Assembly: GCF_000442275.2 (NCBI RefSeq)
Contig: NZ_KE557306.1
Span: 505,342 to 569,341, forward strand
Source: Litoreibacter arenae DSM 19593
GTDB taxonomy: Bacteria; Pseudomonadota; Alphaproteobacteria; Rhodobacterales; Rhodobacteraceae
Direction: 5' to 3'
DNA length: 64,000 bases
How positions within the stretch are numbered: the first letter of the stretch is position 1; each line of letters opens with the position of its first letter. The notes under the pieces are model-generated. The model was not told the origin of the DNA. It ran no database searches and was given only the letters and a program-made list of their open reading frames with translations. This document shows, piece by piece, positions 2,651-44,311 of the stretch. The translations under genes were made by a program, and so were the position numbers.

Positions 2651-2720
2651 AGGGTCGGAGCCTCCGGCGGGAATATTTTTGCCAAGATGAAACCGCAGAC
2701 GCGCGTTAACCTTAATGGCG
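2651..2720 (-). repeat. Post-stop intergenic repeat, copy A
   Basis: Read on the minus strand, this begins a few bases after the stop of the second GS-like gene. It contains CATTAAGGTTAACGCGC, six unmatched bases, then GGTTTCATCTTGGC running into AAAAATATTCC and a CCGGAGG tail. The same composite is found after ftsY (36925-36990), and its 22-base core is also at 28232-28253. Placement just after stop codons in sense orientation suggests a 3'-UTR or termination-linked element; the function is unknown. Confidence 0.75.
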
Positions 2721-2722
2721 GG

Positions 2723-4057
2723 TTAAACCGTGTCGAGATAGAGGTCTATGCGCTCCACCTCGGTCAACTCCTCGTAGTATTGAGCCTCCTGCTTCTTGGT
2801 CATCAGGTAGTTGCGGATCAACTCCCGCGGCAGAATGCGGTGCATCAACTCGGAGGCCTCGAAAGCCGCGATCGCGCCGTCCCAGGTCGTAGGCAGTTGC
2901 GGCAAGTCCGCGTCATAGGCGGAGCCGGTGATCGGCGCGGGGGCGTCCATCTTGTCCTCAAGCCCCACCAGAGCTGCGCCAAGCACGGCGGCCAGCATCA
3001 GGTAGGGGTTGATGTCGCCGCCTGCGACCCGGTGCTCGATCCGGCGGGCCTGATGCGCGCCCGCAGGCACGCGGATGGCCGAGGTGCGGTTCTCGTAGGC
3101 CCAGGCGATCCCGGTGGGGGCGTGTGCGCCGGGCGTGAAGCGCTCGTAGCTGTTGCCGTGAGGCGCGAGGATCAGCATGGAGGCCGGCATCGCCGCGATG
3201 CAGCCCGCGATGGCGTGGCGCAGGGCGGGGGTGCCGTCCTCGCCGCCATTGTCGAAGATGTTGTTGCCGTCCGTATCAAGGACCGAGAAATGCGTGTGCA
3301 TTCCGGTGCCCGTATGCTCGGCATAGGGTTTGGCCATGAAGCTGGCGGCGAAGCCGTGTTTGCGGGCCAGACCGTGGATCAGCAGCTTGAACAGCCATGC
3401 ATCGTCGGCGGCTTTCATCGCGTCGTCGGAGTGAACCAGATTGATCTCGTACTGGCCCATGCCTGCCTCTGAGATCGCGGTCTCGGCGGGAATGTCCATC
3501 GCTTCGCAAGCGTCGTAGAGTTCTGTGAAGAAGTCGTCGAACATATCCAGCGCGCGCATCGACAGGACCTCGCCGCCCAAACGGCGCTTGCCGGAGCGGG
3601 GTGAGGGCGGCGGTTGTAAGTCGTCGCCGGTGTCGTCGATCAGGTAGAACTCCAGCTCGGTCGCCACCACCGGACGCAGCCCTTTCGCGGCGAAGCGGTC
3701 GATGACGGATTTCAGCGCGTGGCGCGGGTCGCCTTGGAACGGGGTGCCATCCTCGAGAAACATCCACATCGGCAGCAATGCGGACGGGTTGGCGAGCCAC
3801 GGCATCGGCACGAAGCCGCGCTCGGTCGGCATCAGGACGCCGTCGCGGTCACCTGTCGCGAAGACCAGCGGGCTGTCCTCGATATCCTCGCCCCAGATGT
3901 CGACATTCAGCACAGACATAGGCATCCGCGAGCCGTCGGTCGACAGCTTATGGGCAAAGCGGGCGGGCATGCGTTTACCCCGCGCCTGACCGTTCAAATC
4001 TGCGACCGCGGCGCGGATGTTGCGCACGGTAGGGTTGTCGCGGAGCCAGCTGTCCAT
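2723..4057 (-). CDS. Second glutamine synthetase family protein (gamma-glutamyl-amine ligase)
   Basis: A 444-residue GS-like ligase. Conserved elements include ELEFYLID (about 146-153), AGMGQYEINL and MHTHFSV, equivalent to those in the paralogue at 520-1902, with HAPTGIAWAYENR and RVAGGDINPYLMLAA in the C-terminal half. It is clearly diverged from that paralogue (no close local identity outside motifs), so it is not a recent duplicate. It starts 3 bp after the second permease gene, placing import and gamma-glutamylation in one transcript. Likely an ATP-dependent glutamate-amine ligase; an ordinary ammonia-fixing glutamine synthetase is less likely because of the short length and the neighbours. 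Confidence 0.82.
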   Translation of the reverse strand: MDSWLRDNPTVRNIRAAVADLNGQARGKRMPARFAHKLSTDGSRMPMSVLNVDIWGEDIEDSPLVFATGDRDGVLMPTERGFVPMPWLANPSALLPMWMFLEDGTPFQGDPRHALKSVIDRFAAKGLRPVVATELEFYLIDDTGDDLQPPPSPRSGKRRLGGEVLSMRALDMFDDFFTELYDACEAMDIPAETAISEAGMGQYEINLVHSDDAMKAADDAWLFKLLIHGLARKHGFAASFMAKPYAEHTGTGMHTHFSVLDTDGNNIFDNGGEDGTPALRHAIAGCIAAMPASMLILAPHGNSYERFTPGAHAPTGIAWAYENRTSAIRVPAGAHQARRIEHRVAGGDINPYLMLAAVLGAALVGLEDKMDAPAPITGSAYDADLPQLPTTWDGAIAAFEASELMHRILPRELIRNYLMTKKQEAQYYEELTEVERIDLYLDTV

Positions 4058-27479: not shown

Positions 27480-28223
27480 ATGGCGCGGCGTCTCCCGTCG
27501 CGCTTGCTGCCCCGTCTCGTGCGCCGCGCGTGGCTGGCCGCGTGCCTTGTTGTAAGCGGGGCTGCCGCGGCTGAGACAATAGTCGAGGCGCGCTACGCCG
27601 AGCCCACCACGCGCTACGCCCATGGCATTCTTGGTGATGCAATTGAGTGGGGCGCGCTAGAGCTGGTGATCGAGGACGCGGCGAACAGAACCACGCTGAA
27701 AATCCGTCTGCCGAAGGATCGCGTGTTTGAAGACGTGGCCCCGCGACTTGCCGATGTCGACGGCGACGGCTTCCCCGAAGTGGTGGTGGTGGAGACGCAG
27801 ATCGACACCGGCGCGCAGTTGGCGATCTACGATGAGACCGGCAAGATTGCCGCCACGCCCCATATCGGCCGCGCGAACCGCTGGCTCGCGCCTGTCGGAG
27901 TGGCCGATCTGGACGGCGACGGCTTTGTCGAGCTGGCTTATATCGACCGCCCGCATCTGGCGAAAACCTTGCGCATCTGGCGCTTCCGCGATGGCGCTCT
28001 GATGCATGTCGCCGACCAGCCCGGCCTGACCAACCATCGCATCGGAGAGCGTGACATCGGCGGCGGCCTGCGCCTGTGCGACGACACGCCCGAAATGATC
28101 ACCGCCTCCGCCGACTGGACCCGCGTCATTGCCACGAGCTTCGACGGCACGGCCTTTACCGTTCGCGATCTGGGCCCACATAAAAGCCGCCAGTCTCTGA
28201 ATGCCGCACTGTCGTGTAACTAA
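27480..28223 (+). CDS. Exported FG-GAP/VCBS-like repeat protein
   Basis: 247 residues with an N-terminal signal peptide after a basic stretch (cleavage about AAA-ET). Two calcium-binding-like FG-GAP/VCBS repeats are visible: LADVDGDGFPEVVVVE and VADLDGDGFVELAYID, as in integrin-alpha-like beta-propellers, but only a few blades fit in this length. Probably a periplasmic or surface protein. The ATG follows the ferredoxin stop by 3 bp, though no functional connection is obvious. Two cysteines near the C-terminus (LRLCDD and ALSCN) could form a disulfide. Confidence 0.72.
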   Translation: MARRLPSRLLPRLVRRAWLAACLVVSGAAAAETIVEARYAEPTTRYAHGILGDAIEWGALELVIEDAANRTTLKIRLPKDRVFEDVAPRLADVDGDGFPEVVVVETQIDTGAQLAIYDETGKIAATPHIGRANRWLAPVGVADLDGDGFVELAYIDRPHLAKTLRIWRFRDGALMHVADQPGLTNHRIGERDIGGGLRLCDDTPEMITASADWTRVIATSFDGTAFTVRDLGPHKSRQSLNAALSCN

Positions 28224-28231
28224 GCTTGCGC

Positions 28232-28282
28232 TTCATCTTGGCAAAAATATTCCGGGGGGCCGCAGGCGGGGGCAGAGCCCCC
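28232..28282 (+). repeat. Post-stop intergenic repeat, copy C, with terminator-like hairpin
   Basis: Nine bases after the preceding stop, the 22-base core (CATCTTGGCAAAAATATT flanked by TT and CC) occurs exactly as in copies A and B. Here it lacks the upstream CATTAAGG part and is followed by GGGGGC-AGA-GCCCCC (28268-28282), a 6-bp hairpin. Sense orientation downstream of a gene again. Likely linked with transcript 3' ends. Confidence 0.75.
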
Positions 28283-28294
28283 TCCACCACACGC

Positions 28295-29557
28295 CTAAAG
28301 CGCGCGCCAGCCAATATCGGTGCGATAAAACCCGTCCGGCCAGTCGATCCGTTCCACCATTGCATAGGCCCGCTCCCGCGCGTCCTTCAGGGACGCGCCC
28401 CGGGCCGTCACGTTGAGCACCCGTCCGCCCGCGGCCGTAACCTGACCGCCGCTGAGCTTCGTTCCCGCATGAAACACCATGTTGGCGCTGTCCTCGGGCA
28501 GATCATCCAGCCCGCCGATGACGGAGCCTTTCCCATACGCCCCCGGATAGCCCTTTGTCGCCAGCACCACCGTGATCGCATGATCGTCGGCCCAGTTGAC
28601 CCGCGTCTGGTCAAGACGCCCCTCGGCGCAGGCCAGCATCAGGTCCAGCGCCTGCGCGCCAAGACGCATCATCAGCACCTGACATTCCGGATCACCGAAG
28701 CGCACATTGTATTCCACCAGCCGTGGCTGGCCATCCTTGATCATCAGGCCGACATAGAGAACGCCCTGATAGGGGGTGCCGCGTTTCGCCATCTCGTCAA
28801 TCGTCGGCTGTACGATTTCGGCGACCGCCTTGGCGGCAATCTCGTCGGTCAGCACCGGAGCAGGGGAATACGCCCCCATGCCGCCGGTGTTCGGGCCCTC
28901 GTCACCGTCAAAGGCGCGTTTGTGGTCCTGCGCGGTACCGATAGGCAGCACGGTCTTGCCGTCTGACAGCAGGAAGTAGGAGGCCTCTTCGCCCTCCATG
29001 AATTCCTCGACCACCACCTCGGCGCCCGCCGCGCCGAAAGCGCCGCCCAGCATGTCGTCCAAGGCCGCATACGCCTCGGGAAGATCCATCGCTACTACAA
29101 CGCCCTTACCTGCGGCCAGCCCGTCGGCTTTGATCACAATTGGCGCACCTTGGGCTGCGACATAGGCTTTTGCGGCCTCCAGATCGGTGAAATGGGCGTA
29201 GCCCGCGGTCGGCGCGCCTGCCGCATCGCAAATTTCCTTGGTAAAGCTCTTGGAGGCCTCCAGCCGCGCCGCCGCAGCTGTGGGGCCGAAGCATAACAAA
29301 CCAGCATCCTGCAGCGCGTCTGCAACCCCTGCGGCCAGCGGGTCTTCTGGGCCGACGATGACGAAATCAATCGAATGGTTCTGGGCGAAATCCACCACCG
29401 CGTCGGGGTTCATCAGGTCAAGCGTCGCACATTCCGCGATGGCTGCGATCCCGGCATTTCCCGGAGCCACGATCAGCCGGTCGCATTTGGGGTTCTGCAT
29501 CACGGCCCACGCCAAAGAATGCTCGCGCCCGCCGCTTCCAAGGATCAATATGTTCAT
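28295..29557 (-). CDS. purD: Phosphoribosylamine-glycine ligase
   Basis: A 420-residue ATP-grasp enzyme making glycinamide ribonucleotide from phosphoribosylamine, glycine and ATP in purine synthesis. MNILILGSGGREHSLAWAV is the classical N-terminus; ADGLAAGKGVVVA is the ATP-grasp lid, and GPNTGGMGAYSPAPV and VEYNVRFGDPECQ are signature segments. Stand-alone, divergent from xseA with 64 bp between starts, as often seen in Rhodobacterales. Confidence 0.97.
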   Translation of the reverse strand: MNILILGSGGREHSLAWAVMQNPKCDRLIVAPGNAGIAAIAECATLDLMNPDAVVDFAQNHSIDFVIVGPEDPLAAGVADALQDAGLLCFGPTAAAARLEASKSFTKEICDAAGAPTAGYAHFTDLEAAKAYVAAQGAPIVIKADGLAAGKGVVVAMDLPEAYAALDDMLGGAFGAAGAEVVVEEFMEGEEASYFLLSDGKTVLPIGTAQDHKRAFDGDEGPNTGGMGAYSPAPVLTDEIAAKAVAEIVQPTIDEMAKRGTPYQGVLYVGLMIKDGQPRLVEYNVRFGDPECQVLMMRLGAQALDLMLACAEGRLDQTRVNWADDHAITVVLATKGYPGAYGKGSVIGGLDDLPEDSANMVFHAGTKLSGGQVTAAGGRVLNVTARGASLKDARERAYAMVERIDWPDGFYRTDIGWRAL

Positions 29558-36924: not shown

Positions 36925-36990
36925 CGCATTAAGGTTAACGCGCTCCCATGGTTTCATCTTGGCAAAAATATTCCCCCCGGAGGGTCGCCT
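36925..36990 (+). repeat. Post-stop intergenic repeat, copy B
   Basis: Starting 4 bases after the ftsY stop: CATTAAGGTTAACGCGC, six unmatched bases, then GGTTTCATCTTGGCAAAA continuing to ATATTCC and a CCGGAGG tail. It matches copy A (2651-2720) over more than 50 bases apart from the central six and a few 3' positions. The core starts 32 bases after the stop codon, against 32 bases in copy A. Confidence 0.75.
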
Positions 36991-43998: not shown

Positions 43999-44034
43999 AA
44001 TAAAAAAGCCTCCACCGGGAAAAGGGGGAGGCTC
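43999..44034 (-). terminator. Intrinsic terminator between SAM-II aptamer and metZ
   Basis: On the minus strand AGCCTCC, a 13-base loop, GGAGGCT followed by TTTTTTA: a perfect 7-bp stem with a T-run, 27 bases before the metZ start codon and directly after the aptamer. This is the expected expression platform, so SAM binding probably causes premature termination. Confidence 0.88.
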
Positions 44035-44045
44035 ATAGCAATCCA

Positions 44046-44100
44046 TCCTCTTTAGCAGCATATTTAACGTGGCCCGCAATCCGGTAACAAATCGCCACGG
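44046..44100 (-). ncRNA. SAM-II riboswitch aptamer
   Basis: Minus strand: CGTGGC (P1 5' arm), GATTTGTTACCGGATTGCGG, then GCCACG (P1 3' arm), followed by TTAAATATGCTGCTAAAGAGG. The P1 pairing is perfect over 6 bp; the GATTTG..., GATTGC and GCTAAAG segments match the SAM-II consensus, in which the GCTAAAG end forms the pseudoknot. Location upstream of metZ in an alphaproteobacterium is the classic setting. Confidence 0.9.
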
Positions 44101-44311
44101 GAGAGGAAATACGCCGCTGGGCTGGCGAGGTCAAGGCTGTGGGGTTCACAGGGGGTGAGGTCTGCTTGGAACCCACTTTGCAGATCTTCTACGGTGCGGC
44201 TAAAGTCGGCTTCATACATGTCGTGAACAGAACCGTGACGAAAGCAATCCCAGTTTTTCTGAGGATAACCGGTCGCTGGGCTATTCCAGGAAATGAGAAA
44301 AGGATTCAAAA

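Follow-up and report, generated by a model that had tools for sequence, protein, structure and literature searches.

A bipartite repeat behind the stop codons of Rhodobacteraceae genes: lineage-specific spellings of a possible boundary element

Why do genes of different function in one chromosome carry the same short sequence shortly after their stop codons? The question arises from a stretch of 64,000 nucleotides of Litoreibacter arenae DSM 19593 (here called the window), in which CATCTTGGCAAAAATATT occurs exactly three times, at positions 36955-36972 (+), 28234-28251 (+) and 2672-2689 (-). In 100 shuffled windows, searched with up to three mismatches to CATCTTGGCAAAAATATT, the mean number of matches was 0.04 and none of the shuffles contained three or more. 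Thus, three identical 22-mers are far beyond chance, as the preliminary description had claimed; the exact 22-mer common to all three copies is TTCATCTTGGCAAAAATATTCC. It follows the stop codon at a distance of 31 nt in the copies at about 36925 and 2651 and of 8 nt in the copy at about 28232, which agrees with the 9-32 bases stated before, and all three copies are in sense orientation relative to the upstream gene. According to Pfam the first copy is flanked by ftsY (SRP54 domains) and an EamA transporter gene, the second by a glutamine-synthetase-family gene and a GATase-family gene, and the third by a gene for an FG-GAP protein and the convergent purD. The additional box with six free bases and equal spacing from the stop codon, also described before for two of the copies, is confirmed: CATTAAGGTTAACGCGC is found exactly in both, starts 5 nt past the stop codon and is separated by six free bases from GGTTTCATC, and in its shuffle control with three mismatches two matches were also reached in 2 shuffles. 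The features in the window are as follows.

36952-36973, + strand: core of the copy after ftsY, composed of TTTCAT, the hexamer CTTGGC, the spacer AA and AAATATTC
36973-36984, + strand: tail CCCCCCGGAGGG of the ftsY copy; tail position 1 is the last base of the core
36927-36943, + strand: optional upstream box CATTAAGGTTAACGCGC of the ftsY copy
2671-2692, - strand: core of the copy after the glutamine-synthetase-family gene (2723-4057, - strand), composed of TTTCAT, CTTGGC, AA and AAATATTC
2660-2671, - strand: tail CCCGCCGGAGGC of this copy
2701-2717, - strand: optional upstream box CATTAAGGTTAACGCGC of this copy
28231-28252, + strand: core of the copy between the FG-GAP protein gene (ends at 28223) and the convergent purD (ends at 28295), composed of CTTCAT, CTTGGC, AA and AAATATTC
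28253-28282, + strand: G-rich tail of this copy with the inverted repeat GGGGGCAGAGCCCCC at 28268-28282

The element thus comprises about 35 bases: YTTCAT, a hexamer, a free spacer of mostly 2-3 nt, AAATAYYC and usually a GC-rich tail. At gathering score Rfam has no match for it in the window; the sole match, away from the element, is a SAM_alpha riboswitch at 44031-44108 (-) with 62.4 bits (gathering score 36).

The three copies belong to a larger family. With up to three mismatches the whole genome (G000, 3.68 Mb) yields 29 matches, 15 forward and 14 reverse, and the reversed control none. We left out four of them (L025, L026, L028 and L029), which have three mismatches each and by eye lack the shared flanks, so that 25 copies remain. 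The two bases 3′ of CATCTTGGC vary freely among the copies. A search based on the tail added 11 places: three have the own spelling with a spacer of 1 or 3, and the remaining eight show a second spelling, CTTCATTGCTTYNNAAATATTC, or length variants of it; in total the element is present at 36 or more places. Among the intergenic 10-mers of the 424 kb surrounding the window, TTCATCTTGG recurs most, with 8 of 206 gaps containing it. The box CATTAAGGTTAACGCGC is a separate repeat, present at 12 places of the genome (up to two mismatches), partly 5′ of the element and partly elsewhere. At one locus (L158, C11:445948+/446006-) two elements form an inverted pair, tail to tail and about 58 bp apart; inverted pairs with similar spacing are seen in G007, G009, G001 and G011.

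That similar sequences are common in Rhodobacterales, as the preliminary description had supposed, holds for the family Rhodobacteraceae: among 120 genomes, one per genus, a relaxed pattern has at least one match in 83 and at least ten in 35, and the reversed control never more than one per genome. The highest count for one pattern is 133 matches in one relative. With a stricter pattern 7 of 61 relatives have matches, and the 24 from other families of the class have none. The halves come in several spellings or dialects, among them CATCTTGGC/AAATATTC (the own one), CATCTTGCC/AAATACTC and CATTTTTGC/AAATACTC and, further, CATCTTCGC/AAATATCC, CTTCTTTTC/AAATACTC and CATCGTGGC/AAATACTC. Scanning GTDB contigs with the tail gave at least 118 stretches; the 80 listed have Rhodobacterales or unspecific Alphaproteobacteria titles, some of which we take to be Rhodobacterales, apart from one Sphingomonadales MAG. 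Plasmid records give nine weak records of mixed taxa with a window copy as query and 17 places in 15 records with the family consensus, the genera of these 15 being presumably Rhodobacteraceae. Phage records have no match to the consensus. In IMG/VR 18 stretches (L278-L295) carry one tail pattern. The open-access literature, within which we searched, yielded no description of the element, and excerpts of two papers on Rhodobacter sphaeroides RNA ends (PMC7866481, PMC6238624) and of PMC7901474 do not mention it.

Where do the copies lie relative to genes? Genes were called with a purpose-written simple gene finder based on codon usage, whose individual calls may be wrong. Of 239 copies only 9 are within a called gene, and the 224 classifiable ones fall into 90 convergent, 53 tandem-sense, 69 tandem-antisense and 12 divergent positions. 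In the same order the numbers are 9/7/9/0 for 25 copies of G000, three of which (L019, L020 and L022) are partly covered by a called frame, and 47/26/32/7 for the named GTDB sample (124 copies at 118 loci; 6 at an edge, 6 in a gene), in which the background gaps are 91 convergent, 270 tandem and 99 divergent. For G154 (30 of 131 copies) they are 19/4/5/1 with one copy in a gene, for G079 (30 of 40 copies) 11/10/5/2 with two in a gene and for G148 (30 of 105 copies) 4/6/18/2. Seen from the gaps, the element occupies 23 of 74 convergent, 24 of 299 tandem and 1 of 115 divergent gaps in G154, G148 and G000 summed, counted in stretches of DNA that are contiguous or evenly spaced. One G154 contig, chosen for its many listed copies, contributes 17/31, 13/86 and 1/42 to these and has the element in 31 of its 159 gaps of 25-400 nt; the G148 sample contributes 2/15, 5/86 and 0/22 and G000 4/28, 6/127 and 0/51. 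The element belongs at the 3′ ends of genes and not to one strand. The sense orientation noted for the window is therefore correct for its three copies and does not extend to the genome and its relatives (53 tandem-sense, 69 tandem-antisense). Random orientation and random position relative to genes had been named beforehand as signs against a signal; the orientation is indeed random, the position is not.

The two halves of the element are coupled. On a G154 contig of 320 kb, 36 generic matches comprise three types and two chance-like matches, and in all 34 copies of the three types the right half, beyond the free spacer, can be told from the left one: ATCTTGC pairs with AAATACTC (18/18), the TTCTGGT-type with AAATACCC (14/14) and the left half of the third type with AAATATCC (2/2). 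Identical tails are found there with differing cores. Decayed copies are scarce. The first type of G154 has 15, 0, 0, 1 and 1 copies with zero to four mismatches in 320 kb, followed by random background, and 228 kb of G148 have 6, 3, 1, 0 and 0. The whole of G148 contains 66 exact matches and more with one or two mismatches, thus conservation is less absolute there.

Many sites are old. For 33 of 40 copies from G001 and G009, fetched by the core pattern, G000 has the element at the same site too. In 38 aligned pairs (5 with G011) the core length is equal in 34; these 34 agree at all 19 fixed positions, in part a consequence of having selected the copies by pattern, while each of the two spacer positions is identical in 25 and the 30 upstream positions are identical in 17 to 31. 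Some of the copies are without a tail. Behind ftsY, 20 of 30 loci could be read, another frame having been picked in the other ten: the own spelling is present in G001, G009 and G011, another or altered spelling in G004, G005, G015, G017, G018, G083 and G114, a relic in G002, and nine loci are without a recognisable element. Here G005, G015, G017 and G018 retain CATTAAGGTTAACGCGC, exact or almost so, beside a differently spelled or altered core. Behind purD (30 loci) we find the own spelling in three genomes (G001, G009, G011), the second spelling in three (G004, G015, G018), another spelling in three (G017, G083, G114), the reversed orientation in two (G016, G154) and no recognisable element within 117 nt at 19. 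Both loci show that sites last between some species with differing spelling or orientation and are missing in others. G002, which is from the same genus, has no match to core or tail, and 400 kb of it with 207 gaps have no match to the generic element; its commonest intergenic 10-mers, among them T-run terminator-like words, each occur in only 4 gaps. G013 and G020 have no match to the core or tail patterns either.

We tentatively suggest that the element is a chromosomal boundary element of the Rhodobacteraceae at gene 3′ ends, whose half-motifs are read together, probably on DNA, by a putative sequence-specific trans-acting factor. The indifference to the gene strand, the coupled halves around a free spacer and the strong conservation point to a factor which reads DNA, and the position at gene ends speaks for a boundary function, in the simplest case a stop or an insulation of transcription; from these features we infer the factor, its action on DNA and the outcome in termination or insulation. 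The element would then probably serve as a boundary that assists termination. The bound putative factor and the GC-rich tail could insulate the adjoining transcription units. A polymerase arriving from the tail side would first transcribe the tail hairpin and next GARUAUUU, which is weakly U-rich, and could stall at the factor on the other half, and a polymerase arriving from the non-tail side would run straight into the factor. The specificity of the factor might differ by lineage, which would give the dialects. It is a more doubtful suggestion that there is a dedicated gene-boundary system, in which the putative DNA-bound factor stops RNA polymerase at many transcription-unit ends of the Rhodobacteraceae and evolves together with its sites in dialects, two or three specificities being present per genome. 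Roadblock termination by a DNA-bound protein is known from eukaryotic TTF-I and Reb1. The likeness would lie in a DNA site at gene ends where a bound protein, here a putative one, stops the polymerase. Roadblocking in bacteria is treated in PMC10310618 and PMC4132739.

Could a plain intrinsic terminator do the same? It would be two-sided, the AT-rich core giving U-rich RNA in both directions beside GC-rich hairpins, and would need no dedicated factor. The location at gene ends fits, and the element read antisense in part resembles a Rho-independent terminator, with a GC-rich inverted repeat ahead of a weakly U-rich stretch. In G154 the antisense reading scores as terminator in 11/17 convergent and 3/7 tandem cases (15/17 and 7/7 with a relaxed U criterion), whereas the sense reading does so in only 2/17 and 1/6. 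In G000 the antisense reading scores in 1/4 convergent and 0/1 tandem cases and the sense reading in 1/4 and 0/5. Hairpins below -12 kcal/mol ahead of GAGTATTT are present in 79/121 cases of the named set versus 48/121 shuffled ones, but for the window copies neither direction folds better than shuffled sequence (z between -1.34 and 1.12). The termination signal considered in the preliminary description is accordingly favoured by the tie to gene 3′ ends and the antisense reading in G154, and disfavoured by G000 and by the folding of the window copies. Furthermore, a terminator does not need an invariant core of 18-19 positions with coupled halves on its far side, tail-less copies exist and a canonical U-run seems to be absent. 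We therefore consider the plain two-sided terminator unlikely.

The tail itself covaries. Positions 2 and 8 are complementary in 53 of 53 tails (C-G 42, T-A 7, G-C 4) and so are positions 4 and 12 (G-C 41, C-G 12); the set consists of core-selected copies with an in-frame short tail (17 from G000, 4 from the family, 16 each from G001 and G009), 36 of 89 elements having no in-frame tail, and many of its sites are orthologous and thus not independent. Elsewhere the pairing 2/8 is broken in one G010 copy and in L131 and the pairing 4/12 in one G079 copy. As the two pairings interleave, no single simple hairpin can hold both.

Does the element stand in for canonical terminators? These are found at 20/40 convergent ends of the element-free G002 and at 15/56 of G000, a comparison which is only suggestive of replacement because it is confounded by the GC content (0.583 and 0.615; G154 0.666). 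At element-free ends G154 has canonical terminators in 4/28 and G148 in 8/26 cases. In the named sample they are present at 42/72 convergent and 23/56 tandem gaps with the element and at 63/118 and 80/271 other gaps. Terminators are thus as common at element gaps as elsewhere in this sample, in which replacement of canonical terminators is not seen.

No more probable than the plain terminator are signals like the DNA uptake sequences (DUS) of Neisseriaceae, which would be kept and homogenised by sequence-biased DNA import or recombination and parked at gene ends as harmless places. According to the relevant parts of PMC3630211, DUS are likewise short fixed motifs with lineage dialects, more than one (two) per genome, and with an association to gene ends. 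Such a drive would account well for the change of dialect at an unchanged site; it would not explain the low copy number or the avoidance of genes. DUS are 10-12 nt long; the same parts of PMC3630211 give thousands of copies for them, often intragenic. The element instead has a free spacer flanked by 18-19 fixed positions in all, occurs in tens to a few hundred copies (at most 133 matches to one pattern in the 120 genomes) and lies nearly always between genes, 9 of the 239 copies being within a called one. The competence gene comEC was found in 20 of 21 genomes, including the element-free G002, G013 and G020, the miss being G019 (57% complete), so that a competence link via comEC does not separate the models.

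A non-autonomous mobile repeat of the REP type is a quite improbable explanation. Like REP/BIME sequences with their RAYT transposase, as far as parts of PMC2817692 describe them, the element is extragenic and short, has a palindromic part, its tail, forms inverted pairs such as the one on C11 of G000 and comes in lineage-specific families. Against this, Y1_Tnp/RAYT (PF01797) is present in none of 26 genomes, five of 14 control genomes being positive, and RAYT mobilisation was rejected on this ground. Moreover the bipartite core lacks a GTAG/GTGG head and is non-palindromic, palindromy being confined to the optional tail, a spacer inside the repeat unit is free, and 33 of 40 sites are old and shared. 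A decaying mobile repeat should also leave more intermediates than we see. The mobile small repeat proposed earlier is thus not supported.

Equally improbable in our estimation is an element acting at the RNA level in the 3′-UTR, such as a processing site, a target of a small RNA or the RNA-binding site that had been considered before. The nearness to stop codons and the three sense copies of the window are what one would look for; the about even gene-relative orientation given above (tandem-sense versus tandem-antisense) is not, and because both orientations occur a strand-specific RNA signal is not supported.

Finally, a polar site of chromosome architecture, oriented with replication like KOPS or Ter, appeared attractive at first. 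Across 20 sampled regions of G148 the GC skew switches sign at about 0.83 and at about 2.3 Mb, a single sample at 2.0 Mb deviating. Of the 65 perfect copies on the main contig, 50 by hand count carry their sense strand on the low-GC-skew strand. The orientation agrees with the local skew in 29/35 copies of G000, 78/124 of the named set, 20/30 of G148, 29/30 of G154 and 21/30 of G079. Chance near-matches used as control are biased too, however, and on the 320-kb contig of G154 the copies are 9 plus and 6 minus and follow the skew only within about 1.5 kb. For four genomes a composition model predicts 92.7 of 126, compared with 99 found; the observed number is above expectation in G154 (27 versus 21.2 of 30) and G000 (31 versus 24.1 of 36) and below it in G079 (21 versus 22.6 of 30) and G148 (20 versus 24.8 of 30). 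Near-match controls, contig mapping and composition model thus remove most of the replication polarity, with a remainder in G154 and G000, and we take the polarity to be mainly compositional, consistent with sites arising in place by mutation. A KOPS- or Ter-like site is largely refuted by these data and highly improbable.

The boundary element read by a putative factor is favoured by the gap occupancy, both orientations, the coupling of the halves, the all-or-none conservation, the kept sites and the dialect differences, further by the terminator-like antisense reading in G154, the hairpins ahead of GAGTATTT in the named set and the greater number of canonical terminators in G002 than in G000. 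It is weakened by the antisense scores in G000, the shuffle-like folding of the window copies, the tail-less copies and the equal share of canonical terminators at element gaps and other gaps of the named sample. Several spellings per genome also count against it, as they need several readers or one flexible reader. If such a boundary element exists, an ecologically important and largely marine family would mark its gene ends with fixed spellings that change with the lineage. This would give a handle on how a sequence-reading factor and dozens of sites change together and provide short parts for the insulation of genes in Rhodobacteraceae. Even apart from the mechanism, a putative reader could be approached directly through the dialect differences at orthologous sites and through the sister species, where the search found no element.

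Two minor observations concern contig C29 of G154 (L493-L508). The strand asymmetry at third codon positions tracks the orientation of the element within about 1.5 kb (13 of 15 cases) but no longer does so at 25 kb (9 of 15). In the G-rich tails the first and the second G-run are by eye often of equal length (4/4, 5/5, 6/6), as if both were able to pair with one C-run.
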